Source: an uncultured Lachnospiraceae bacterium (GTDB lineage Bacteria > Bacillota > Clostridia > Lachnospirales > Lachnospiraceae). Taken from it: a stretch of DNA of 64,000 bases. The first letter of the stretch is position 1, and each line of letters starts with the position of its first letter. Made by a program: the position numbers and the translations under genes. Below, piece after piece: positions 38,120 to 64,000 of the stretch. The notes beneath the pieces were generated by a model. That model worked only from the letters and a program-made list of their open reading frames with translations. It was not told the origin of the DNA and did no database searches. The stretch spans positions 1 through 64,000 of the forward strand of contig CAMEOT010000015.1 in NCBI GenBank assembly GCA_945929965.1. Direction: 5' to 3'.

Positions 38120-38531
38120 GACAATACCTCTTTCTTTGATTATTTGATGTCTACGGATTGTTCCGTGCTGCGCACTCTCACAATCCGCCCCAATATTCGC
38201 ATATCGTGGGATTATCATCCCGCTTTTATGCTCATATCGGGGCGGGACATAAGGTCTTTCACCCACTTATGAGCAAGCTCATGTGGGCTTAGACCTTTTG
38301 ACCCTGGCATCAGATGTATTACGTTATGAACTATGATATAATAGAATCCAGTACTTCGCAAGGATTTGTAAAAAAATAATTTTGGGACTTCCTATTTTAA
38401 AAAATATATATTATAATAAACGCAGATGTAGTTTTAATATCTATTTTATTTCATTGACACATCAGGATAGATCAGGAGTATTCCCCTAAGTGAACAGTTT
38501 GCAGAGTATATAATGAATACAGGAGGAGCAT
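38120..38531. other. 412-bp divergent intergenic with strong hairpins
   Basis: Between the malic enzyme and rho starts. Holds GTGGGAT-TATC-ATCCCGC (about 38206-38224) and a long hairpin at 38251-38297 (AAGGTCT, CCCAC and ATGAG arms pairing with CTCAT, GTGGG and AGACCTT around a CAAG loop). CATATCG-type sequence occurs twice. No ORF is convincing. AGGAGG at 38520-38525 serves rho. Confidence 0.5.
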
Positions 38532-54942: not shown

Positions 54943-55014
54943 GCAGATATGGTTCATCGGTAGAACGCTAGCTTCCCAAGCTGGAAAGGCGGGTTCGATT
55001 CCCGTTATCTGCTC
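54943..55014 (+). tRNA. tRNA-Gly (CCC), likely attachment site
   Basis: Cloverleaf: acceptor GCAGATA/TATCTGC, D-arm with GTTC/GAAC, anticodon loop TTCCCAA (CCC), T-arm with TTCGATT loop. TATAAT lies at 54920-54925. The prophage-like element starts just 3' of it, as is common for tRNA integration sites; the second att copy would lie outside the window. Confidence 0.9.
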
Positions 55015-55485: not shown

Positions 55486-56079
55486 TCAATCTGTTTCAAC
55501 TGGTAAGTGAACGCTTTTATTTATAGCCTGCGCCAGTTTCTCCGAGGACTGGGCGAGGTATTCTTGTGTTGTCGTAACGCTGGCGTGCTGGTAAAATTCT
55601 TTAACCGCTACAATATCATGTCCGGAATTCTTATAGATCTGCTGCCCGGCGAACTTCCGAAAGCTATGTGTTGAGGTCTGAGGAAGTCCTAAATATTCAG
55701 TGGCAGCCTTAAGCGCTTTCTGTATAGCCCTTTCTGTAAATTGAAATATGCGCCGCTCCTGGTTGATTCTATTTTCTTCGCAGTAGTCCCGAATATAGTT
55801 ATAAACCGGTTCCGGGACCTGGTGCCGCCGTGCCTTGCTTGTTTTCTCTTCGATAATGTCCATGCGGTAATGATCACCATCACGCACCAGAGAGGAAAGG
55901 GACAAGTGCAAAATATCACCGATCCTGCAGCCTAAATTAGCCTGTATAACTAAGCAGCAGGCCATATGTGGCGCAGGGCGGTGTATTACGTTGTCTTTTC
56001 CGGTGTAGCCGGTGCGGATCAGTGAAACAATACGGTTATAGCTTTCTTCATTAACTGCCAGTGTGGTATAAGCTCCCAT
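55486..56079 (-). CDS. Minimal tyrosine recombinase (integrase)
   Basis: 197 residues, only the catalytic domain of the tyrosine-recombinase family: Arg52 (NLGCRIGDIL), Lys79 or Lys82 (EEKTSKAR), His138 and Arg141 (STHSFRKFAGQQI), His165 (FYQHASVTT) and Tyr174 (TTQEYL). Full-size integrases have 300-400 residues with arm and core-binding domains; here none precede Met1. AAAGGGG lies upstream of the ATG, so the short form is a real gene, not a truncation artefact. It ends the minus-strand operon next to tRNA-Gly, and probably integrates the element there. Confidence 0.85.
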   Translation of the reverse strand: MGAYTTLAVNEESYNRIVSLIRTGYTGKDNVIHRPAPHMACCLVIQANLGCRIGDILHLSLSSLVRDGDHYRMDIIEEKTSKARRHQVPEPVYNYIRDYCEENRINQERRIFQFTERAIQKALKAATEYLGLPQTSTHSFRKFAGQQIYKNSGHDIVAVKEFYQHASVTTTQEYLAQSSEKLAQAINKSVHLPVETD

Positions 56080-56085
56080 GTGATT

Positions 56086-56202
56086 CTATCCCCTTTCTAA
56101 CTCGTAAATAGCCCACCGCAGGGCGGCGGCTGTCTCCGTGTCGTGTTCGCGCTCTGCGCGTTCCAGTAGCTTATAAAGCCGTTCGAGGTTCTTTTCCTTC
56201 AT
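56086..56202 (-). CDS. 38-residue acidic/basic small protein
   Basis: Not recognised. MKEKNLERLYKLLERAEREH, then DTETAAALRWAIYELERG: a single charged amphipathic helix. AAAGGAG lies before the ATG. It ends 6 bases before the integrase start, so the two are co-transcribed and could act together, for example as a small recombination directionality factor; that is inference only. Confidence 0.6.
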   Translation of the reverse strand: MKEKNLERLYKLLERAEREHDTETAAALRWAIYELERG

Positions 56203-56274
56203 GTGCTTTTTTCTCCTTTCGTTTGAATATAAAACCGCCGCCGGTAGTGATCCGGCGGGCATCCTCTGCGGCGG

Positions 56275-56412
56275 CTATTGTTCGCAGTTTATATCTGCAA
56301 GCTCTTTGCGTATTTTCTTGATCTCTGCAAGGTATACCGGGTTATCTTTGCAGGCTTCGAGGTTGTCCAGTCGTCTTATTAGTTCTTCTTTTCTGCGTTC
56401 GTTTTCGCTCAT
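56275..56412 (-). CDS. 45-residue helical small protein
   Basis: Not recognised. MSENERRKEELIRRLDNLEA, then CKDNPVYLAEIKKIRKELADINCEQ: mostly helical, with two cysteines. GGAGGT precedes the ATG. A strong GC hairpin (CCGCCGG-ATCACTA-CCGGCGG, then TTTT) follows its stop on the minus strand. Confidence 0.6.
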   Translation of the reverse strand: MSENERRKEELIRRLDNLEACKDNPVYLAEIKKIRKELADINCEQ

Positions 56413-56458
56413 GGCGTAATACCTCCATATTTTCAATTTTTCCCGTTTCCGGGTAAAA

Positions 56459-56499
56459 GCAAGCCGGGGAATCGAACCCCGGGAACCGCCGCCGCTTGC
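56459..56499 (-). other. tRNA acceptor/T-arm-like minihelix
   Basis: On the minus strand GCAAG pairs with CTTGC around a T-arm CCGGGG-TTCGATT-CCCCGG; a 12-nt GC-rich run replaces the D and anticodon arms. It lies immediately after the stop of the gene at 56500-56676. Could be a processing signal, a tRNA relic or a tRNA mimic. Confidence 0.5.
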
Positions 56500-56676
56500 C
56501 TAAATAAGTACACCCAAGCGCATACAATCACGCTTTCTATCACAAACAATTTTCCATTTTTCAAAGTCGCCCTTGATATTTTCTGCAGTTCTGGTGTCTG
56601 CCCATTCGTCCCGGGCTTTAATATAAGCGGCTTTCGCATCGTCTTTCTGTTTCTGCAATTTCTCCATAAATTCCAT
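56500..56676 (-). CDS. 58-residue small helical protein
   Basis: Not recognised. EFMEKLQKQKDDAKAAYIKARDEWADTRTAENIKGDFEKWKIVCDRKRDCMRLGVLI: probably two helices, coiled-coil-like N-half. GAAAGGACGG precedes ATG 56676. Its stop abuts the tRNA-like minihelix. Longer frame to 56763 overlaps the next gene and is rejected. Confidence 0.6.
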   Translation of the reverse strand: MEFMEKLQKQKDDAKAAYIKARDEWADTRTAENIKGDFEKWKIVCDRKRDCMRLGVLI

Positions 56677-56693
56677 AATATTAACCGTCCTTT

Positions 56694-56864
56694 CTATGCG
56701 TTTACTTCTTTTCTCAAAATCTCGATAGCTTCTTTCGTGGTGTGTTCTCTGTACCACTTCCAAGGCTTTTTATAAGCTCTTGCGAGTGAAAAATCTTCTT
56801 GATTTTTCAATAAATAATCCCTAACTTTCAAAAATGCTTTTTGAGCTTCTTCTAATTTTACCAT
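56694..56864 (-). CDS. 56-residue small protein
   Basis: Not recognised. MVKLEEAQKAFLKVRDYLLK, then NQEDFSLARAYKKPWKWYREHTTKEAIEILRKEVNA: helical with a Trp-rich centre (KPWKWYRE). AGGATGG lies before ATG 56864; ATG 56876 is an alternative. It is 17 bp before the 56500-56676 gene and shares its operon. Confidence 0.55.
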   Translation of the reverse strand: MVKLEEAQKAFLKVRDYLLKNQEDFSLARAYKKPWKWYREHTTKEAIEILRKEVNA

Positions 56865-56948
56865 AAAATCAACCATCCTTTCATTTATGCCCTGTCTCAT
56901 CGGTGCAGGTGGGGCAGTTCCTGCAGACCGCCGGAAGGCGGTTTCGAC

Positions 56949-57110
56949 TTAGTTGTAAAGCATTTCTTGCATGATCTGGTGGCGTTCTGCTTCGGATTTC
57001 TTCCGGTGCATTTCTTTAAAATCCTTTTCAGCTTTCGCCTGTGCTTCCTTCTTGGTATATCCTCGACCTCTCCAAAGGTCATGTAATTGTTCTATTGTCC
57101 AGTCCTTCAT
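56949..57110 (-). CDS. 53-residue small protein
   Basis: Not recognised. MKDWTIEQLHDLWRGRGYTK, then KEAQAKAEKDFKEMHRKKSEAERHQIMQEMLYN: two helices, strongly charged. AAAGGA precedes ATG 57110. The stop is followed by GTCGAAACC and a GACCGCC-GGAA-GGCGGT hairpin (about 56923-56944), like the stop of the 57189-57446 gene. Confidence 0.6.
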   Translation of the reverse strand: MKDWTIEQLHDLWRGRGYTKKEAQAKAEKDFKEMHRKKSEAERHQIMQEMLYN

Positions 57111-57188
57111 ATTTTTCCTTTCTGGTCTGCCATCATCAGAGCCGGGAGACCATCCCACGGCTGACGCCCCAGGGCGGAGCGTTTCGGC

Positions 57189-57446
57189 TTAAATAATTTT
57201 TGCATAGAATTCAGAAACTTTCTGGATTCTGTCGGCATCCTCGCAGTTTTCAAGATCTGCCAGCCGGATTATAAAAAATCTATCCTTTGTGTTCTTTGGT
57301 AAGCAGTTATTTATAAAATCTTCTGCGTTGTCTGGATGGGAGAAAGTAGCGGTAATAATTACCTTTGTTTTTCTGTCGTCCTGTGTGCTCTTGTCGATCT
57401 TGTAAGCTACCGCCCAAGGGCAAGTATTAAATGTTATATTCTGCAT
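57189..57446 (-). CDS. 85-residue phage-type hypothetical protein
   Basis: Not recognised. ITFNTCPWAVAYKIDKSTQDDRKTKVIITATFSHPDNAEDFINNCLPKNTKDRFFIIRLADLENCEDADRIQKVSEFYAKII: a probable alpha-beta fold. The stop is followed by GCCGAAACG and GC-rich hairpins (57130-57185), the same layout as the downstream gene. Second gene of the minus-strand operon. Confidence 0.6.
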   Translation of the reverse strand: MQNITFNTCPWAVAYKIDKSTQDDRKTKVIITATFSHPDNAEDFINNCLPKNTKDRFFIIRLADLENCEDADRIQKVSEFYAKII

Positions 57447-57464
57447 GCTAGATACCCCACTTTC

Positions 57465-57605
57465 TTACTTGTATACGATTTCATATATCTGCGACAATTT
57501 GCAATATTCTTCGCATTCCGCTTGTTTCGTGCACTTGGAGCAATCATTTTCGTAAGTGCCGCAAACCTTTGTTAATTCCTTTTCCAGCTCTTCAATTCTT
57601 TCCAT
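57465..57605 (-). CDS. 46-residue cysteine-rich protein
   Basis: Not recognised. MERIEELEKELTKVCGTYEN, then DCSKCTKQAECEEYCKLSQIYEIVYK: five cysteines including CSKC and CEEYC, so it may bind zinc. First gene of the operon starting at the 57711-57739 promoter. AAAAGG precedes ATG 57605. Confidence 0.6.
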   Translation of the reverse strand: MERIEELEKELTKVCGTYENDCSKCTKQAECEEYCKLSQIYEIVYK

Positions 57606-57710
57606 TTGCTTTTACCTTTTCACCCATGTTATAATTTGGGTGCCTTTCTTTTTGGGTGCCGCTCGGGTGATCTGTCCAGGATGCCGGGCGGCTTTTTATT
57701 TGTTGAGATT

Positions 57711-57739
57711 ATTATATAACTTAAATAAGTTATAGTCAA
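57711..57739 (-). promoter_or_regulatory. Operon promoter with operator palindrome in its spacer
   Basis: Minus-strand TTGACT (57734-57739), 17-bp spacer, TATAAT (57711-57716). The spacer is nearly all the palindrome ATAACTTAAATAAGTTAT (57716-57733, 8-bp arms around AA). A bound regulator would block both boxes. Transcribes 57605 down to the integrase. Confidence 0.75.
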
Positions 57740-57772
57740 TAGAAATTACAACTTTTTTTAGTTATTTTTTGA

Positions 57773-57801
57773 TTGACTTTTATATATGTGTGTTGTATTC
57801 T
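57773..57801 (+). promoter_or_regulatory. HTH regulator promoter
   Basis: TTGACT (57773-57778), 17-bp spacer, TATTCT (57796-57801). It is divergent from the operon promoter, 34 bp away, with the palindromic operator between them. Confidence 0.65.
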
Positions 57802-57824
57802 CTCTATATAAGGAGGCTTGTAAA

Positions 57825-58070
57825 ATGATACGTTTTAAGTTTGACGTTGCCGGAGCACTAAAAACGGCAGGAATGACAGCATACAAAGCACAAAAAACGG
57901 GGATTATATCGCAGGACACATGGAGGAAAATAAAAGAAAATAATGCAAATATAAGTATGAAATCTCTTAATAATATATGTGCCGTTTTGAACATGCAGCC
58001 GGAACATTTAATATATTATGAAAAGGATGAAACAGAGGAAAAAGAAATAAAAGGAAAATTAGAATTATAA
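57825..58070 (+). CDS. Cro/C1-type HTH regulator
   Basis: 81 residues. IRFKFDVAGALKTAGMTAYKAQKTGIISQDTWRKIKENNANISMKSLNNICAVLNMQPEHLIYYEKD is a single XRE-type helix-turn-helix of the YozG-like short form. AGGAGG lies 8 bases before ATG 57825. It is divergently placed from the small-gene operon with a shared palindromic operator, like a phage lysogeny switch. It likely represses the integrase operon. Confidence 0.85.
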   Translation: MIRFKFDVAGALKTAGMTAYKAQKTGIISQDTWRKIKENNANISMKSLNNICAVLNMQPEHLIYYEKDETEEKEIKGKLEL

Positions 58071-58149
58071 TATTAAAAACATAACGAATATAAGTTACTA
58101 CAATATTGCTAAAAGGTAACAGGCGGAAACCAGAAAGGAAGGTGAAATA

Positions 58150-58410
58150 ATGCAAATAGAATACAGTAAAACGGCTGTCAAATTTATAAACAAAATGGAT
58201 AGACCGACAAAACAACGAATAAAGGCAGCTATTGAGGGGTTAACAGAGCAGCCACCAAGAGGAGACATAAAAATATTACAAGGCTACACAGACGGGCGGA
58301 AGAGGTTAAGAGTTGGGAAATATAGAATAATATATAATTATCTTCCGAATGGAGAAATAGAAATATTATATATTATTGATATTGATTCGAGAGGGGATAT
58401 ATACAAATAG
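58150..58410 (+). CDS. RelE/ParE-type toxin
   Basis: 86 residues. MQIEYSKTAVKFINKMDRPTKQRIKAAIEGLTEQPPRGDIKILQGYTDGRKRLRVGKYRIIYNYLPNGEIEILYIIDIDSRGDIY fits the RelE superfamily: GxxRLRVGxYRIxY is the usual core, with Arg and Tyr positions expected for an mRNA interferase. AAGGAAGGTG precedes the ATG. Toxin comes first and antitoxin second, as in HigBA-type operons. Stabilises the element, presumably. Confidence 0.87.
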   Translation: MQIEYSKTAVKFINKMDRPTKQRIKAAIEGLTEQPPRGDIKILQGYTDGRKRLRVGKYRIIYNYLPNGEIEILYIIDIDSRGDIYK

Positions 58411-58437
58411 GACACCCAAGAAAGGAGAGCAAAAAGC

Positions 58438-58650
58438 ATGAGTACAACAACAAAACAGGCGATAGACCTAATGGAGTTATTGCCGGAAAAAGATCAGAAT
58501 TTTGCATTAGAATTTATTAAAAAGCTTGTGATAGCATGGGACCCGGATTATACAAAAGTAACGCCGGCAGAACGTGCAGAACTGGAAAGAGCACAAAGAG
58601 AAATTGAAAACGGGGAAACGGTTTCACATGATGCAATTAATTGGGATTAA
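58438..58650 (+). CDS. RelB-like antitoxin
   Basis: 70 residues. STTTKQAIDLMELLPEKDQNFALEFIKKLVIAWDPDYTKVTPAERAELERAQREIENGETVSHDAINWD: N-terminal DNA-binding-type helices and the C-terminal toxin-wrapping segment GETVSHDAINW, typical of antitoxins paired with RelE-type toxins. AAAGGAGAG precedes the ATG, 27 bases after the toxin stop. A terminator follows at 58658-58687. Confidence 0.85.
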   Translation: MSTTTKQAIDLMELLPEKDQNFALEFIKKLVIAWDPDYTKVTPAERAELERAQREIENGETVSHDAINWD

Positions 58651-58657
58651 GCATAGG

Positions 58658-58687
58658 AAAGGCGGTCTTTCAAAGGCTGCCTTTTTT
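58658..58687 (+). terminator. Terminator of the toxin-antitoxin operon
   Basis: AAAGGC..CTTT / AAAG..GCCTTT hairpin followed by TTTTTT. Confidence 0.75.
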
Positions 58688-58715
58688 GCTGTTATACTTC
58701 ACATATAACAAAAAC

Positions 58716-58850
58716 CTCCCAATCAACTTCCCGAACAAATCCCAAGCAACGGGCAGCCAACAAAGCCAGTATTTATGCGACTTTCAAGACTTTGCATTTT
58801 TCAACTTCCCAAGCAAATCCCACGCACTTTCCCAAACAATTCCCGAGCAA
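58716..58850. repeat. Seven phased 11-bp iterons
   Basis: Unit about TTCCCAAGCAA at 58716, 58728, 58739 and 58806, 58817, 58829, 58840, spaced 11 or 12 bp so that all face one side of the helix. The two clusters (three and four copies) flank a 56-bp gap. AT-rich DNA follows at 58861-58960. This is the layout of an iteron-type replication origin or a regulator-binding array. Confidence 0.65.
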
Positions 58851-58860
58851 ACCTCGCGCG

Positions 58861-58960
58861 CGGATATAAACTATATATAATAATATATTATAAGGGCTTA
58901 AAAAGGATATAAATAAAAGCGCGTGCGCGCGTATGCGCATACATAAATATTTTTATAAAA
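58861..58960. other. AT-rich stretch with alternating GC tract
   Basis: Contains long TATATAATAATATATTATAA-type sequence (58865-58890) followed by an alternating purine-pyrimidine GCGCGTGCGCGCGTATGCGCATAC tract (58919-58942). Could serve as a DNA unwinding element next to the iterons. No gene. Confidence 0.45.
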
Positions 58961-58966
58961 TGGTGG

Positions 58967-58994
58967 TTGACATAATAATTCTGTGGTTTATAAT
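58967..58994 (+). promoter_or_regulatory. Strong promoter of the small RNA
   Basis: TTGACA (58967-58972), 16-bp spacer, TATAAT (58989-58994), immediately before a hairpin-rich segment. Confidence 0.7.
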
Positions 58995-59000
58995 ATATCC

Positions 59001-59160
59001 ATAGGGCGGCATGTTCCGCCGGAATAATTAAAGCGTGTATGTGCTAGCTCGCAGGCCTTGACCACATACAACGACCACGCAGCAGGCGTGCAGAGATCAG
59101 AGCAGACGGCTCCAGTCTATACGGTATCCACTCCGTAGGGCTGGGGCTTTATTTTTTTTA
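59001..59160 (+). ncRNA. Candidate ~160-nt structured RNA
   Basis: Starts at the promoter and ends with a terminator hairpin (GCTCCAG/CTGGGGC, inner TACGG/CCGTA, 59109-59160) and T-run. It also has GGCGG-CATGTT-CCGCC and a long stem GCGTG-TATGTG / CACATA-...-CACGC. It may be a free small RNA or an attenuator for the downstream gene. Confidence 0.55.
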
Positions 59161-59217
59161 TTCGATCACTTCCAGGGATCCGGAAGACGTGGAGCAGATC
59201 AGAAAGGACAGGGAGCC

Positions 59218-59889
59218 ATGAAAGACAATACAGAGATTGCATATAACGGATCAAAGGTATATACGAATCGCATCCAGGAACTAGCAGACGAATTTATAAA
59301 TAATCAACTGGACGATAAACAGCGTGAAGAGATGCCAAATAACTCTAATACTTTTATGGCTATGATATTATATATCTCTGATAATATCCCAAAGGTAGAT
59401 AACAATGATATACAGCAGTTAGATAATATTTTTAATATATATACTAGATTATGTGTTAAATATAATATGCTGCCTACTTTAGAATCGTTTAGCATGTTAA
59501 TTAATATTAATCCTGGTACATTATCAGATTGGAGTAGTGGAGCATTAAGAAGTACAGTATATTATGACTCTGAAGGTAAGTATATAAAAGACTTTGCAGC
59601 ATGGCAGCTGAACCACAGGGGCGATCAGTACAGGGCGGAACCCAGTACGGCGCACGCCGAAGCGGTCAAAAAATGGAAAAATATTTGTAAAAATTTCCTG
59701 GTAAATTCTCTGCAGAATTCCCGCGGAACTGATGCAAATAAAATATTTATTGCAAAGGCTGCTTATGGCATGGTTGAAACCGCACCGGTCCTGGTAGCTA
59801 ATCCAGAGCAACACCGGACAGCGGAGCAGATCGCAGCCGATTACAGCACTGCCGGAGCTCTTCCCGGGGATGTCCAGCCGGATTTTTAA
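59218..59889 (+). CDS. Phage-type protein, possible terminase small subunit-like
   Basis: 223 residues. The centre has a HTH-like segment (LPTLESFSMLININPGTLSDWSSG, about 90-115) and the end SRGTDANKIFIAKAAYGMVETAPV resembles the tail of small-terminase or phage DNA-binding proteins; this is weak. The first half (about codons 40-110) is much more AT-rich (many ATA, TTA, AAT) than the last third, suggesting a mosaic gene. GACAGGGAG precedes the ATG. It follows the iterons and the small RNA. Confidence 0.5.
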   Translation: MKDNTEIAYNGSKVYTNRIQELADEFINNQLDDKQREEMPNNSNTFMAMILYISDNIPKVDNNDIQQLDNIFNIYTRLCVKYNMLPTLESFSMLININPGTLSDWSSGALRSTVYYDSEGKYIKDFAAWQLNHRGDQYRAEPSTAHAEAVKKWKNICKNFLVNSLQNSRGTDANKIFIAKAAYGMVETAPVLVANPEQHRTAEQIAADYSTAGALPGDVQPDF

Positions 59890-59904
59890 AGCTCTTTCAG
59901 CAAT

Positions 59905-60075
59905 ATGCACAAAGGTTTTAGAGTGGCAAAAAAGGAAAAGCCCAGAAATATGGGAAAGTTCGCAAAATGGTATAAATGCGAACTTTTGAAAAGGGCACAG
60001 GATCAGACCGGGGGCGGGGTCTACTGGGAACTGTCCCCGGGGCATAACTTAGCCCCTCAACCACTCAAAAATTAA
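59905..60075 (+). CDS. Possible 56-residue small protein
   Basis: HKGFRVAKKEKPRNMGKFAKWYKCELLKRAQDQTGGGVYWELSPGHNLAPQPLKN: basic start, no known match. No good ribosome site at ATG 59905; the weaker option is ATG 59950. The rest of the 59890-60211 gap holds no other signal. Confidence 0.3.
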   Translation: MHKGFRVAKKEKPRNMGKFAKWYKCELLKRAQDQTGGGVYWELSPGHNLAPQPLKN

Positions 60076-60211
60076 AAAGGCCATCCTCCTACATACAGCC
60101 CACCAATTTACTACAGACAACATCATTCAATCTACATCTGATAAAATTCAAAGTTACGTTCGATAACAGGATTCCAAAATTTAAAAAATATAAAAAAGGG
60201 GTAGCACATAT

Positions 60212-60625
60212 ATGACCGGAAATGAGTATCAAAAATCCGCTATGCGGACAAATGATTGCAAGGCAACAGACAGATTAAGAAATGCGATGGAAATTTTTCA
60301 TCTCGATAAACACTGTTCTGAACCGAATGCCGAGATACGCAATGCAGATTTCGGAGGAATATTCAATGCCTGCCTTGGATTATCCGGCGAGGTTGGAGAG
60401 TTCAACGACATGATTAAAAAGTGGATTTTCCATGAGAAGCCGCTCGATATTGACCATGCAAAGAAAGAAGCAGGAGATATTTGCTGGTATCTTGCAATGC
60501 TTTGTGAATCTTTCGGATGGAACCTTGATGAGATCATGCAAATGAACGTAGACAAGCTTAAGGCACGTTATCCTGAAGGCTTTGACGTTGAAAAATCGAA
60601 CCACAGAGCAGAAGAGGATGTTTAA
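60212..60625 (+). CDS. MazG-like NTP pyrophosphohydrolase, phage type
   Basis: 137 residues. LSGEVGEFNDMIKKWIFH gives the ExxE metal motif and HAKKEAGDICWYLAMLCE the ExxD partner of the all-alpha NTP pyrophosphohydrolase fold. Phage MazG-like proteins change host nucleotide pools or (p)ppGpp. AGGGG precedes ATG 60212. Lies in the element downstream of the mosaic protein. Confidence 0.82.
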   Translation: MTGNEYQKSAMRTNDCKATDRLRNAMEIFHLDKHCSEPNAEIRNADFGGIFNACLGLSGEVGEFNDMIKKWIFHEKPLDIDHAKKEAGDICWYLAMLCESFGWNLDEIMQMNVDKLKARYPEGFDVEKSNHRAEEDV

Positions 60626-60638
60626 GGGAGGAAAACGT

Positions 60639-60746
60639 ATGATCTTATTGATTGTTATGTTATTTTGGATTTTATATACATTGCAGGCTCCGTGGTGGAT
60701 GTATTTGCTATTGATCCTCCTGGGGATATGTGGAACTAAGGATTGA
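60639..60746 (+). CDS. 35-residue membrane peptide
   Basis: MILLIVMLFWILYTLQAPWW, then MYLLLILLGICGTKD: two hydrophobic stretches, probably membrane-spanning. GGGAGGA lies 6-7 bases before the ATG. Too short to classify; phage elements often encode such peptides. Confidence 0.5.
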   Translation: MILLIVMLFWILYTLQAPWWMYLLLILLGICGTKD

Positions 60747-60757
60747 GGTTATAGCTT

Positions 60758-61153
60758 ATGAAAATCTACGGTAAAGAGATCACGGATGAATGTCAGTACT
60801 GCGGTGATGTCCTTCAGTGTGAATTATTCCTTCAGGGGCACGGGATCAAACAGGAGAGATCCAACATTACAGAGATGTTTGCCTGCCAGATGGATCATAA
60901 CAATAAGCGCGATGGAAGCACTTCAAACATGACGGGGAAAAAGAAGAAAGAGCTTCCGGAGGATGTAAAAGCAATTTATACTGCAGTCTGGAAAATCCAT
61001 AAAGGCAATCCGTATCCTAAATCTGATGAAGACTGGGAGCAGATCAACCGGGAATGTAAGGTGCTGCTGAAAATGTATGATTGTCCGTTTGCACATAGTC
61101 TGATTCAAACGATGATTGCAGAAATAGAACGGCGTGTTAAAAAGGAGTCTTAG
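60758..61153 (+). CDS. Phage-type hypothetical protein ending in a tRNA
   Basis: 131 residues, not recognised. N-terminus ITDECQYCGDVLQCELFLQGHG carries a CxxC pair; then a Lys-rich linker (MTGKKKKELPEDVK) and a helical part (AVWKIHKGNPYPKSDEDWEQINRECKVLLKMYDCPFAHSLIQTMIAEIERRVKKE). The last ten bases and stop TAG lie inside the tRNA-Met gene, an unusual overlap. Same strand. Confidence 0.6.
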   Translation: MKIYGKEITDECQYCGDVLQCELFLQGHGIKQERSNITEMFACQMDHNNKRDGSTSNMTGKKKKELPEDVKAIYTAVWKIHKGNPYPKSDEDWEQINRECKVLLKMYDCPFAHSLIQTMIAEIERRVKKES

Positions 61154-61217
61154 CTCAGCTGGTTAGAGCACCCGGCTCATAACCGGGCGGTCCTGGGTTC
61201 AAGTCCCAGAGACTCCA
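61144..61217 (+). tRNA. tRNA-Met (CAT), prophage-encoded
   Basis: Acceptor GGAGTCT/AGACTCC, anticodon loop CTCATAA with CAT, T-loop TTCAAGT, discriminator A. Complete cloverleaf. Elongator Met or Ile2 (lysidine-modified) cannot be separated by sequence alone. It overlaps the preceding CDS by 10 bp. Confidence 0.92.
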
Positions 61218-61482
61218 CTGTATTGCTTAGTCCATGAGCAATACCCCCTATACCTCATAGCGGAATGCTGTTAAGAGCCGTCAATGGCTCGTGAGGGTTT
61301 TCCGGCTCCCATCCCACGGAGTCGGAGAGAGCAGTGTTAGTCCTGCTTTAACAACGATACGGCAAGCTCGGCATACGCGAGTAAATAGAGCATCAATCTT
61401 CAAAGCCGGCGGGTGGAACTACAGGCAGTCAAATGACAGAGATTGATTACCCTGCACGGCCCTTGCAGTCATAAGATGGGCG
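61218..61482. other. Hairpin-dense non-coding segment A
   Basis: Strong stems in series: GTATTGCT/AGCAATAC (61219-61244), GAGCC-GTCAAT-GGCTC, CCGGCTCC/GGAGTCGG, AGCAG/CTGCT and CTCG/CGAG. No ORF of significance. The order and density look like a folded RNA rather than a spacer. Confidence 0.5.
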
Positions 61483-61624
61483 TAGGTGGTGGCAGAATGG
61501 TATTGCAGGCAAAGAAGCCGATCAGTAAGAGTATTGCCGAGTGACAGGCGGACGATCACCCGTAGCCAGCAACAACACCTTTTCAGAAACTGACTTTGTG
61601 AGGTTCAAATCCTCACCCACCTAT
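61483..61624 (+). tRNA. tRNA-like gene with enlarged anticodon loop and long variable region
   Basis: Acceptor TAGGTGG/CCACCTA, canonical D-arm GCAG-AATGGTA-TTGC, anticodon stem GGCAA/TTGCC (61508-61512, 61534-61538) enclosing a 21-nt loop, then about 60 nt before a normal T-arm (TTCAAAT loop). No recognisable anticodon position. May be a tRNA with an insertion or a tRNA-like RNA. Confidence 0.55.
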
Positions 61625-61697
61625 TTTCCATGAAAGCGCATGGATAGTGCAACGCATGGCACGATAAATATGATTGCTAACCGTCTGATGGCGGTTT

Positions 61698-61784
61698 CGG
61701 AACGTAGCTTAATTGGTAAAAGTGGCGTGTACACGGAAAACAACAACGAGAGCCGGATTGAAGGTTCGAATCCTTCCGTTCCGA
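61698..61784 (+). tRNA. tRNA-like gene with enlarged anticodon loop
   Basis: Acceptor CGGAACG/CGTTCCG, D-arm GCTT/AAGT with GG in the loop, T-arm GAAGG-TTCGAAT-CCTTC, five-nt variable region. The anticodon stem GGCGT/GAGCC (one mismatch) closes a 21-nt loop instead of 7, so no normal anticodon can be read. Loop contains ACAACAAC, also seen in the 61483 gene. Confidence 0.6.
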
Positions 61785-61861
61785 TGGTGCCGAGCTGATC
61801 TGATACTGTATGCGTAGCGCAGTCGCATACAGAGATATGGAGTGAGGTGTCTGCGCATTTC

Positions 61862-61951
61862 GGGGAAGCGGCAACGATTGGCGGTGTTGCAGCTGACTGT
61901 AAATCAGTTCCCAAGCGGTAAACATTGGAGGTTCAAATCCTCTCTTCCCCA
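61862..61951 (+). tRNA. tRNA-Tyr (GTA), prophage-encoded
   Basis: Acceptor GGGGAAG/CTTCCCC, D-arm GCAAC/GTTGC, anticodon loop CTGTAAA with GTA, long variable arm as in bacterial tRNA-Tyr, T-loop TTCAAAT, discriminator A. Confidence 0.92.
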
Positions 61952-62262
61952 TTTTGCAGAAATAAAATAGAGCGTGAGATACGGTGGCGGCCACAAGGTG
62001 TTTCGTAAATGTACAAGTCAGGTAAACAGCCGGGAGACATCCTACCGATAAACAGCAGAAAATCATAACGCTTGTCCCTGTTCGCAGGTGCTGACTAACT
62101 GCTGCATAATATCTGTTTCTGCAATTATTCGGTCAAATTACGCTGTCTGCCAGCAGATGGTCTATGTTTTGGCTGAAATGTATTGGCGAAAGCCGTGGTA
62201 AGCAATCGTTAAATAGGGAGATTGCAACGCTCACTGAGAGGCTTATGTGAGCATATAAAATT
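61952..62262. other. Hairpin-dense non-coding segment B
   Basis: Long-range TTGCAGAAA (61954-61962) pairs with TTTCTGCAA (62116-62124); further stems are AGCGT/ACGCT, GGC-GAAA-GCC (GNRA tetraloop), GCAATC/GATTGC and GCTCAC/GTGAGC. No ORF. It fills the gap between tRNA-Tyr and tRNA-Ser. Confidence 0.5.
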
Positions 62263-62346
62263 GCCAACGTGCCCGAGCGGTAAAGGGAACGGTCTTGAAA
62301 ATCGTCTGTCAGAAATGGCTTGTGGGTTCAAATCCTACCGTTGGCG
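62263..62346 (+). tRNA. tRNA-Ser (TGA), prophage-encoded
   Basis: Acceptor GCCAACG/CGTTGGC, D-arm CCC/GGG, anticodon loop CTTGAAA with TGA, long variable arm, T-loop TTCAAAT, discriminator G. Confidence 0.9.
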
Positions 62347-62362
62347 TTTCGATCTTTGATAA

Positions 62363-62391
62363 TTGAATATTGACGGTTGAAGTGGTATAAT
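62363..62391 (+). promoter_or_regulatory. Promoter of the 62421 gene
   Basis: TTGAAT (62363-62368), 17-bp spacer, TATAAT (62386-62391) with TGG, 17 bp after the tRNA-Ser end. Confidence 0.6.
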
Positions 62392-62420
62392 TTTATTATT
62401 ACAGAAGAGGGGGATAAAAT

Positions 62421-63053
62421 ATGGACGAAAGAATAACTTTTCTTTGTGAAATTGTAAATCGAATTTCAGAAATTATATCTGACAAAGAAAATAAAAAGAA
62501 ACAGGAATTGGTTAAAGCGGTATATGAAAAAACAGAAGAAGTTTATAATGATTTTTATAGAATTTTGCAACATGCGTATTTAGAAATAGATAGTGGAAAC
62601 ATGACAGTAGATGAAGCGGTGCGATATTTCGACCATGAGAGATTTCCATTTAGATCTTCAAGAAAGAAAATACGCGGATATATGCAGCATCCGTATTATA
62701 GTAGAAATCAAGAACTGGAATGGTTTAATATTGGTGTTATGGGGGTTTTATGTGGTGGAATACATGATTCTATTGAAAGATTTCTGAACTGTAGTATTAA
62801 AGAAAATGATATATTTGCCGAAACAAAAGTTGAATTTAAAGGTTATCATACGATTGTAGATATTATGAATTTATATGATAGAAAAAATATGAATTCCTTA
62901 TTCTATTCAGATTTTTATAAGCATTATCTAGGTGGAGAAGAACTCGAAGAAGCAATTAGAAAAAGACTCTTAGTGGACATAAAAAGACAAATGGGAAAGA
63001 TAGATAAAGCGTGGCAAATGGTCTGTGATTATTACCCCAGAATAATGTTTTAA
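62421..63053 (+). CDS. Unknown 210-residue accessory protein
   Basis: Not recognised. Acidic/basic helical protein: DERITFLCEIVNRISEIISDKENKKKQELVKAVYEKTEEVYNDFYRILQHAYLEIDSG, later HERFPFRSSRKKIRGYMQHPYYSRNQELEWFNIGVMGVLCGG. It has its own promoter upstream and terminator downstream (63061-63096), is AT-rich relative to the surrounding phage genes, and sits behind the tRNA island, the pattern of an accessory cargo gene (moron). AGGGGG precedes the ATG. Function cannot be read. Confidence 0.65.
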   Translation: MDERITFLCEIVNRISEIISDKENKKKQELVKAVYEKTEEVYNDFYRILQHAYLEIDSGNMTVDEAVRYFDHERFPFRSSRKKIRGYMQHPYYSRNQELEWFNIGVMGVLCGGIHDSIERFLNCSIKENDIFAETKVEFKGYHTIVDIMNLYDRKNMNSLFYSDFYKHYLGGEELEEAIRKRLLVDIKRQMGKIDKAWQMVCDYYPRIMF

Positions 63054-63060
63054 ACGTTAC

Positions 63061-63096
63061 TACCAACCGTCAATATTTGATGGTTGGTATTTTTTT
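63061..63096 (+). terminator. Terminator of the 62421 gene
   Basis: TACCAACC..TCAA / TTGA..GGTTGGTA hairpin followed by TTTTTTT. Confidence 0.8.
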
Positions 63097-63116
63097 ACGC
63101 AAAATGAGGTGTGAGT

Positions 63117-63335
63117 ATGTGTAATTTTTGCAAGGATTACAGTGAAAACAGAATATTTGGCGCTGATATTCCTATCAAAAAGTGCGCAAGCGAAACTGAT
63201 CTGAAAGATGCACAGATTATGAAGCATACCGGAGATAAAGTGTCAGGTATCGTGATTTATAAAGGATGTAAGGCAGCAGGATATTTTAATATTGCATTTT
63301 GCCCGATGTGCGGCAGAAAGTTGGTGGAAGGATGA
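63117..63335 (+). CDS. Small zinc-ribbon phage protein
   Basis: 72 residues. CNFCKDY near the N-terminus and FCPMCGRK near the C-terminus give two CxxC pairs of a small zinc ribbon; the middle has CAS and GCKAAGY. GAGGTG precedes ATG 63117. Overlaps the next gene start by a few bases. Family resembles small phage zinc-ribbon proteins; no definite role. Confidence 0.6.
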   Translation: MCNFCKDYSENRIFGADIPIKKCASETDLKDAQIMKHTGDKVSGIVIYKGCKAAGYFNIAFCPMCGRKLVEG

Positions 63336-63337
63336 GC

Positions 63338-63700
63338 ATGAAAGCAGTAATTGAGAGTATAGAACGTGATGCGCTCCGGCAGGCAATGAAGCCAGAGATT
63401 GAAATGTCTTTGGTTGAATTTGCAGAGAAGATTGCACCATTTCCGTTATCTGAATTTCAGAAACAGTTAATTCGGGAATACGAGGAATGTGAGAAAAGAA
63501 ATTTACCCTTGTGTTACATTCCACCAAGAAAAGCTGGAAGAGATTTTATATATCGATTGATTAAAGAGTGGGAACGTCAGTATCACTTGATAGATGCACG
63601 TTGTAGTAAATGCAACCGTCTTTTAGGAAAATTCAACGGACAGGCTGAAATCAAATGCCCGAAATGTGGGAAAATCAATAGAATCGGAGTAGAACGATGA
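63338..63700 (+). CDS. Phage protein with terminase-like segment and zinc finger
   Basis: 120 residues. N-half contains LVEFAEKIAPFPLSEFQKQLIREYEECEKRNLPLCYIPPRKAGRDFIYRLIKEW, which resembles the start of a large-terminase ATPase but with an altered Walker A (PPRKAGRDF, no GKT). C-half is a Com-like zinc finger CSKCNRLLGKFNGQAEIKCPKCGKINRI. GGAAGG lies 6 bases before ATG 63338. Ends with ATGA overlap to the next gene. Confidence 0.55.
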   Translation: MKAVIESIERDALRQAMKPEIEMSLVEFAEKIAPFPLSEFQKQLIREYEECEKRNLPLCYIPPRKAGRDFIYRLIKEWERQYHLIDARCSKCNRLLGKFNGQAEIKCPKCGKINRIGVER

Positions 63701-63930
63701 AATTTTGTTTCGGAGATATTGTTGTTGTCGAGGAAAATCAGATAGGTGTTGTGGTTAAAAGCTGGTGTAAATCACTCTTAGGAGCAGAAGCAAGTCATGA
63801 TGTGTATGTGAGAACGACAGGACAGATTGTAAATTACCCGGAATCGCAGATACAGAGGTATATGGTACGCCATAAATATCTTGATGAACAGGAAGTCGAG
63901 TGGAACAATAATGCCGTATATGGCAGATAA
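63697..63930 (+). CDS. Phage-type hypothetical protein
   Basis: 77 residues. MKFCFGDIVVVEENQIGVVV, then KSWCKSLLGAEASHDVYVRTTGQIVNYPESQIQRYMVRHKYLDEQEVEWNNNAVYGR: a beta-rich N-half, resembling small phage SH3-like proteins that follow zinc-finger genes in prophages. Coupled to the previous gene by ATGA. Followed by short non-coding sequence to the window end. Confidence 0.55.
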   Translation: MKFCFGDIVVVEENQIGVVVKSWCKSLLGAEASHDVYVRTTGQIVNYPESQIQRYMVRHKYLDEQEVEWNNNAVYGR

Positions 63931-64000
63931 ATATAGCATTTCAGAGCACCAGTCGTAGAGTGCCTACGCAGAGAGCCAAATTTCCAAAATGTAAGGAAAG

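Follow-up and report, generated by a model that had tools for sequence, protein, structure and literature searches.

The question raised by the window analyzed here, 64,000 nucleotides (nt) of an uncultured Lachnospiraceae bacterium (assembly GCA_945929965.1, contig CAMEOT010000015.1, source genome of 3.04 Mb), is what a prophage would encode in an island in which tRNA genes alternate with long stretches of apparently structured RNA. The island (61144-62347) is on the plus strand, as are all of its features given below. The initial annotation had reported three normal tRNAs (Met, Tyr and Ser) and two tRNA-like genes, separated by segment A (61218-61482) and segment B (61952-62262), and had suggested that the segments may belong to a class of large phage RNAs such as GOLLD and ROOL or to a new class. 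All five genes were recovered by ARAGORN and a parse of their arms. Judged from sequence comparison, the island contains five covarying elements, here termed M1, M2, M4, beta and delta, together with three ordinary tRNAs and two tRNA-shaped RNAs that have no normal anticodon arm. The five elements recur in other prophages and phages in varying order and company, and beta can occupy a tRNA-like scaffold. That neither tRNA-like gene has a canonical anticodon arm had not been noted in the initial annotation. We consider it somewhat more probable than otherwise that the island is a late-region array of non-coding RNAs which would be cut apart at tRNA-shaped marks.

Strong structure had been claimed for both segments, and by folding energy this could be upheld for segment A, which folded better than 200 of 200 dinucleotide shuffles (z score of -3.3), but was unclear for segment B (z score of -1.7, with 5 of 100 shuffles folding equally well). 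The 9-base-pair (bp) helix joining 61954-61962 to 62116-62124 and the GNRA tetraloop (GGC-GAAA-GCC, 62185-62194) were both present exactly as described. Helices of at least nine Watson-Crick pairs also arose in 27 of 200 single-base shuffles of segment B, and the longest helix of segment A was matched in 51 of 200 such shuffles. Since shuffles can yield equally long helices, no lone helix was counted as proof, and folding energy was also rejected as proof of structure, as it failed for segment B and for the inserts of the tRNA-like genes. It is thus the homologues that carry the case for structure, and the 9-bp helix is credible because they have the same helix as the closing helix of beta.

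Covariation across homologues was found in all five elements. In each of the alignments, none of 500 shuffles matched the observed covariation score, and the score dropped with every slide of the pairing partners. The structures were drawn from the same sequences that were tested, so these tests are strong but not independent. M1 (61253-61296), the 5' block of segment A, is a predicted three-way junction (helices P1, P2 and P3); in a nine-row alignment (A4) 99.1% of the cells were paired and 6 of 13 pairs had changed on both sides, and in the seven rows of a second type (type I) the same was true of 4 of 14 pairs. Helix P2 was invariant, and the pair-type count of type-I M1 was equalled by 280 of 500 shuffles. 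M2 (61394-61445), a stem with inner helices, was 97.8% paired over eight rows (A6), with double changes at 7 of 12 pairs (18 cells); five of the six pairs of its 6-bp stem were doubly changed somewhere, and its pair-type count was equalled by 264 of 500 shuffles.

M4 (61452-61481) is a predicted H-type pseudoknot stopping 1 nt short of the first tRNA-like gene (tl1). Its motif is a CTGCA/TGCAG hairpin (stem 61452-61456/61464-61468) whose loop (61459-61462) pairs with a GGRY sequence shortly downstream (61478-61481). Across 19 rows (A2), 98.2% of 171 cells were paired and 3 of 9 pairs had changed on both sides, with the loop helix varying from GUCC/GGAC to GCCC/GGGC and ACCC/GGGU. The three broken cells were in loci L021 and L073 and in the second copy of L172. 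In 7 of the 19 copies M4 ended 1 to 3 nt 5' of a tRNA-shaped gene, with L070 an eighth by a later parse. Delta (61644-61697), which stops at the second tRNA-like gene (tl2), consists of a GTG..CACGATAA stem-loop and a covarying 7-bp hairpin. All cells (100%) were paired in its six-row alignment (A7), and the 5 of 10 pairs that had changed on both sides were all in the 7-bp hairpin, the first stem being invariant. In all five motif copies delta ended at the 5' end of a tRNA, with CACGATAA ending 29 to 30 nt before the tRNA, a count that leaves out a sixth copy with an altered motif (L175) and CACGATAA in other contexts (L064 and L075). A pseudoknot was also considered for delta; the candidate pairs overlap its own stem and hence were not counted.

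Beta (61954-62124) comprises the closing helix, a hairpin, and pseudoknot helices at 62013-62017/62071-62075, 62018-62021/62091-62094 and 62053-62058/62099-62104. In its four-row alignment (A3) 92.4% of the cells were paired and 9 of 27 pairs had changed on both sides. For the closing helix, 3 of 8 scored pairs were doubly changed in the four sequences and 86% of the cells paired; helix 62013-62017/62071-62075 exhibited no double change and 3 of its 20 cells were broken. The order of the helices evoked the P3/P7 pseudoknot of a group I intron, a reading that was rejected on account of spacing judged not to fit and the absence of an Rfam match.

Of 146 related genomes searched at the DNA level, one (G022) clearly contained segments A and B, in the order tRNA-Met, M1, beta, M2, M4 and a tRNA-like gene. 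Patterns derived from shared blocks led to further copies in IMG/VR contigs and genome contigs, and the comparison set consisted of 23 islands of 0.7 to 2.8 kb. Chance matches to exact patterns in viral contigs were dropped (L072 of 4; L165, L166, L168, L170 and L171 of 8; L173 and L178 of 11). The exact M4 pattern occurred in six stretches of genome contigs (Lachnospiraceae, three; Acetatifactor, two; Oscillospiraceae, one), and Dulem virus 39 carries one M4. The elements are rare. With three mismatches allowed, the M4 pattern was present in 6 of 397 family genomes, where only the window and L083 (25.8 bits) look real, and the type-II M1 pattern, which is blind to the type-I M1 of G016, G022 and G002, was present in 5 of 121 genus genomes; apart from the window, the four were at two mismatches and no more numerous than in a reversed control. 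Neither M1 nor M4 was present in the 80 loci kept from 432 relatives in a search with the MazG-like gene, except in L109 (the contig of L070), and a small upstream protein of L021 used as a query found nothing. Beta was located between M1 and M2 in L021, apart from them in the window, and inside a tRNA-like gene in L169. Because the elements change places and neighbors and are separated by complete tRNAs, a single giant RNA is unlikely. Three further recurring blocks between tRNAs, also unlisted, were seen: CTGGGAAGATA in L075, L172 and L174; GGAAGCAGACCATA in L067, L083, L169 and L175; and CCTCACAGA in L065, L068, L073 and L174.

An Rfam 15 scan of 61050-62450, extended down to an E value of 5, revealed no non-tRNA family beyond chance and no intron family. 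Above the Rfam cut-offs, the island had three matches, all to tRNA (at 61144, 61698 and 62263); the others were antisense plastid untranslated-region matches over tRNA-shaped genes and one chance-level small RNA over tRNA-Tyr. Rfam matches in the 22 related loci and the remainder of the contig (L179) were to tRNAs, hammerhead II, RAGATH-21, RAGATH-27, skipping-rope and int-alpA, and none of them covers M1, M2, M4, delta or beta. RAGATH-21, RAGATH-27 and skipping-rope resemble the elements in being short structured RNAs in loci with related islands, but they are unmatched in the window and the island elements match none of them. RAGATH-21 (L062 2798-2882) and RAGATH-27 (L063 2536-2619) lie 100 to 250 nt upstream of tRNAs, and the skipping-rope RNA (L078 2020-2108) is in the same locus as the island of L078. 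The interpretation offered by the initial annotation is thus partly supported: the five covarying elements match no Rfam family, in favor of a new class, whereas kinship with GOLLD and ROOL is not borne out, as neither matched and the elements are reordered around complete tRNAs.

The tRNA-shaped genes were surveyed by scanning for a 7-bp acceptor stem, U8 and a T arm. The 23 islands contained 44 such RNAs, with none on the reverse strand, and 28 of the 44 had no canonical anticodon arm (a 5-bp stem with at most one mismatch, a 7-nt loop, U33 and a purine at position 37). This arm was found in 16 of the 34 RNAs with a 5-bp T stem (7+5) versus none of the 10 with a 6-bp T stem (7+6). Among the controls, which concern 7+5 units only, all 9 distinct units in the 80 other phage loci and all 28 in cellular loci were canonical. 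A 6-bp T stem was seen in none of the cellular loci and in eight hits (five distinct) in the 80 other phage loci, L122 being without a Leu-type D arm. CCA was encoded by none of the 44 units. In 10 of the 18 noncanonical 7+5 units, at most 46 nt separated the acceptor and T stems, corresponding to ordinary tRNA length or less. An irregular tRNA-Val-like gene (..CACCGGCGGACGGTCGGAGG..) directly follows M4 at island positions 569 of L065, 222 of L066 and 807 of L075, and as this is the same gene in three phages, its irregular arm is conserved. tl2 (61698-61783) has normal acceptor, D and T arms and an irregular anticodon region. ARAGORN reads 61697-61785 as an odd tRNA-Arg(ACG), or as tRNA-Val(AAC) carrying a 14-nt insert when introns are allowed; genes of L021, L064, L075 and L167 have an identical or almost identical acceptor stem.

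The 7+6 RNAs were defined by a 7-bp acceptor stem with a 6-bp T stem, U8 and no canonical anticodon arm, and were anchored on an expression for the Leu-type D arm to which four observed D arms, including that of tl1, were added by hand. This D arm was found in 21 RNAs. Four had a 5-bp T stem and were all ordinary tRNA-Leu, and the 17 with a 6-bp T stem (L188 and L189 being near copies) all lacked an anticodon arm, with 24 to 147 nt from D arm to T stem. Immediately 5' of the T stem, an insert-closing helix of at least 5 bp was observed in 11 of the 17 versus 19% of shuffles. The insert of one 7+6 RNA (L169) is beta itself, and L068, L069 and L071 have common acceptor and T stems with differing inserts. 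Comparison of L069, a phage contig from IMG/VR that carries M1 and delta, with phages D6E and PK3.5 (in effect two sequences) revealed that all 28 chosen pairs, spanning the acceptor, T stem and insert helices, were kept, 14 of them doubly changed; between L070 and L175, all 21 checked pairs were kept, 8 of them changed.

Members of this class outside the islands were found in phages PK3.5 (Geobacillus), D6E (thermophilic, host not given), BUCT082 (Bacillus), KLEB27-1 (Bacillus; six of seven acceptor pairs), H1-Guo (Lactiplantibacillus), TMW 1.1365 P3 (Latilactobacillus) and zrk29-2 (host a Tenericutes bacterium), and the named phages carry no RNA annotation at these positions. SPbeta-like relatives of BUCT082 align with its scaffold, phi3T having the same frame with one extra C. 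A DUF3800-VIII RNA is also present in BUCT082 (L190 2842-2907). The 7+6 gene is downstream of a RinA or DUF1492 gene in D6E, PK3.5 and H1-Guo, and 3' of yonN and near yonO in BUCT083 and phi3T; YonO is a late RNA polymerase according to part of one report (PMC8270828). In L145 a 7+6 gene without other tRNAs stands behind TTGACA-17-TATACT (spacing counted by eye). The 7+6 RNAs in nine loci were unmatched by Rfam at an E value of 0.5 or less, not even as tRNA, and ARAGORN called no tRNA in L188-L193. The covariance model R1, run over 398 phylum genomes, matched 28, of which 12 were fetched. The six lowest of the 12 were 7+5 tRNAs with an anticodon arm, and the six best were three 7+6 RNAs (one with a borderline anticodon-like stem), one 7+5 RNA without an anticodon arm, and two left unparsed. 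From the parse of these 12, most of the 28 matches are probably ordinary tRNA-Leu. In the window, tl1 (61483-61623; 141 nt) was identified by its arms and was uncalled by ARAGORN and Rfam. It has a 7-bp acceptor stem and a 6-bp T stem (a 13-bp stack), U8, the D arm GGCAGAATGGTATTGC and no canonical anticodon arm, with 91 nt separating the D arm and T stem. With the 7+6 stack, U8 and the missing arm all in place, tl1 is best called a divergent member of the anticodon-less 7+6 class.

Two known RNAs invite comparison with this scaffold. In the tRNA-like domain of transfer-messenger RNA (tmRNA), the anticodon arm is replaced by a larger domain that is sometimes pseudoknotted. The RNAs described here likewise have a larger domain in that place, but they are far shorter (141 nt for tl1), and ARAGORN found no tmRNA in the window or in L188-L193, a tag frame not being searched for. 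Selenocysteine tRNA (tRNA-Sec) has the same 13-bp acceptor/T-arm stack, but the bacterial form is 8+5, as stated in part of PMC7609411, rather than 7+6 without a canonical anticodon arm; the tRNA-Sec family (RF01852) had no match above its gathering score in the island or the nine 7+6 loci, and four subthreshold matches in related islands. Structured RNAs in the vicinity of phage tRNAs are already known (PMC12286853 and PMC6582537), whereas these elements and the 7+6 scaffold had no match in Rfam 15. No description of the elements or of the anticodon-less 7+6 scaffold was found in the open-access literature, subscription literature being outside the scope of the search.

For the island as a whole, we propose that a single transcript would be read along the late-gene strand, that host RNase P would cut the 5' side of each tRNA-shaped unit, and that RNase Z or exonucleases would trim its 3' side, thereby freeing the tRNAs, the tRNA-like RNAs and the intervening modules. 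The tRNA-like RNAs would retain the acceptor/T-arm domain read by these nucleases, having given up decoding, and may both mark the cutting sites and provide a stable scaffold into which an RNA domain is inserted. Such tRNA punctuation fits the data, since these genes retain the arms that RNase P and RNase Z recognize, no longer decode, and are separated by unrelated RNAs. The freed RNAs might act as RNA-level effectors in late infection, most plausibly by decoying or inhibiting host proteins that bind RNA or cut tRNA; the decoy role is a guess by analogy with a general phage habit described in part of PMC11555353. A wider proposal, which we put forward tentatively and rate below an even chance, is that Firmicutes phages carry an unlisted class of tRNA-Leu-like 7+6 scaffolds in which an exchangeable structured domain takes the place of the anticodon arm, and which are found sometimes alone near late regulator genes and sometimes within RNA arrays that have pseudoknot modules.

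Several observations weigh against the array of RNAs cut at tRNA-shaped marks, or against the place of tl1 within it. The last 137 nt of segment B have no homologue among the other 22 islands. In 11 of the 19 M4 copies there was no parsed tRNA-shaped unit at 1 to 3 nt; in these the next parsed unit was at least 164 nt away or absent, sometimes with other recurring blocks between. The 7+6 inserts were on average no more stable than shuffles (mean z score of -0.4 for 14 sequences). Given the 7+6 hits in the 80 other phage loci, the class need not belong to an array. For some of the 18 noncanonical 7+5 units ARAGORN still makes a tRNA call, and "non-decoding" is therefore a structural judgement. 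As for tl1, a closing helix of at least 5 bp is missing, none of the other 22 islands has a homologue of its insert, and its R1 score of 27.6 bits is within the range of four ordinary tRNA-Leu (22.6 to 28.6 bits), whereas 18 other members (two of them in the model) scored 38 to 226 bits; two more, at L070 4329 and L064 500, were missed at an E value of 1 or less.

Among the alternatives, direct decoys come to mind for the tRNA-like RNAs, which would then draw off host tRNA-cutting or tRNA-binding defense proteins, being uncuttable at an anticodon, and would not be cutting marks. The scaffold is constant and the insert variable, the 13-bp stack known from tRNA-Sec (part of PMC7609411) might exclude these RNAs from ordinary translation, and part of PMC11555353 describes phage tRNAs acting against an anticodon nuclease and against a retron effector that degrades tRNA. 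The island is similarly a tRNA-rich phage region with possible counter-defense, but for T5 tRNA-Tyr and others the anticodon and stem-loop matter for the effect, according to the same partial source, whereas the RNAs here have no canonical anticodon arm. Direct decoys would also leave the modules between the tRNAs unexplained and have no known target; ToxN (PF13958), the toxin partner of a type III antitoxin-like pseudoknot (ToxI), had no match in the host genome, but 14 control genomes were equally silent. We regard this alternative as unlikely. A single giant ornate RNA with embedded tRNAs, like GOLLD or ROOL, would account for the dense pseudoknotted structure and the location. In parts of PMC12286853 and PMC6582537, both RNAs are described as often near phage tRNA islands, and GOLLD as able to contain tRNAs; the island shares with them this place in a prophage, pseudoknots and adjacent tRNA genes. 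They differ in being single large RNAs (659 nt for ROOL env-120 and more than 800 nt for many GOLLD RNAs, as given in part of PMC12286853), whereas the island has short elements recurring in other combinations. Neither family matched at an E value of 5 or less in 61050-62450, or at gathering scores in the 22 related loci and L179. The exchange of order and partners, as exemplified by beta in L021, the window and L169, and the 7+6 RNAs outside tRNA arrays in several phages also argue against one giant RNA, which we consider quite unlikely.

The inserts fall between the D and T arms, with beta inside one, as would be expected if the tRNA-like genes were tRNAs with small introns that an endonuclease or ribozyme excises before RtcB joins the ends. 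An rtcB gene is present in Dulem virus 39 (L063 4963-6087), about 1.5 kb after its M4, and in the host genome on another contig, but RtcB was not found on the contig of the window, which ends at 70821. An intron cannot explain the 10 of 18 noncanonical 7+5 units mentioned above, as there is no room for one between the acceptor and T stems, an exclusion by length that covers these units and not tl1 or tl2. In addition, L068, L069 and L071, with the same acceptor and T stems, reveal no common anticodon, a 6-bp T stem is atypical of a normal tRNA, and no group I intron matched at an E value of 5 or less in 61050-62450. We consider introns quite unlikely. Decaying tRNA genes with random, functionless spacers would fit the many tRNA-shaped genes without an anticodon arm, the inserts that differ among related phages and on average fold no better than chance, and the island parts without a homologue. 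Decay is disfavored by the compensatory changes that keep acceptor, T and insert helices between unlike phages, by the covariation of the modules and by the constant distance from delta to the tRNA, and is the explanation to which we give least credence.

The remaining parts of the island are as follows. tRNA-Met(CAT) (61144-61218), called by ARAGORN and by Rfam (RF00005; 72.4 bits), has a canonical anticodon arm and is immediately followed by a 10-bp hairpin (61220-61244) with 10 of 10 pairs present, which appears in the fold of segment A. The spacer 5' of tRNA-Tyr contains a perfect 9-bp hairpin (61806-61832) that has no homologue among the other 22 islands. tRNA-Tyr(GTA) (61862-61951) has a long variable arm and was called by ARAGORN, its Rfam score of 28.0 bits being under the cut-off of 29; homologues are present in L073, L062 and L022. 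After beta, the remainder of segment B (62125-62261) holds the GNRA hairpin and other stems. tRNA-Ser(TGA) (62262-62347), called by ARAGORN and Rfam, has a canonical anticodon arm and shares 92% identity with Dulem virus 39 over 85 nt. No plus-strand open reading frame of at least 60 amino acids was found between 61154 and 62420, and the G+C content of the island is 49%, versus 41% for 56000-61140 and 36% for 62400-64000.

The island sits within the prophage upstream of the packaging genes and on the same strand. On its 5' side are an integrase gene (55486-56079, minus strand), a repressor-like gene (57786) and the MazG-like gene (60212-60625), and on its 3' side are small genes followed by those for the terminase large subunit, a transcription regulator with activator- and sigma-like matches, the portal, and the major head protein. 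The block directly after the last tRNA (62348-62399) resembles blocks in L025, L022, L065 and L075 and holds an extended -10 promoter-like site, TTGAAT-17-TATAAT, from which the next gene is probably transcribed. A tRNA-Gly(CCC) gene (54943-55014, plus strand) adjoining the integrase gene is a candidate attachment site. A gene for a RelE-like toxin (phrog_1213; 58150-58410, plus strand) followed by a small gene is perhaps a toxin-antitoxin pair near the repressor. Rfam also identified a type II hammerhead ribozyme in the same prophage, on the strand opposite to the island (57121-57189, minus strand; 64.7 bits), a type also present in L068, L069 and L074, and, distant from the island, a Clostridiales-1 RNA (38145-38312, minus strand; 140 bits).

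Phage tRNAs are usually taken as translation helpers or as shields against tRNA-cutting defenses. In the related islands, over half of the tRNA-shaped genes have no canonical anticodon arm, with the acceptor and T arms kept by compensation in comparable subtypes, and tRNA look-alikes without the code-reading part also occur in phages of distant bacteria. If these RNAs are cutting marks or carriers, phages would be using the tRNA fold to package other RNAs, and tRNA gene finders would miss or misread a whole class. As relatives of the scaffold are found in SPbeta-like phages of Bacillus subtilis, the question is testable in a laboratory strain. If the wider class of 7+6 scaffolds is real, phages would have in the scaffold a natural means of displaying and processing their effector RNAs, its domain being swapped as hosts change.

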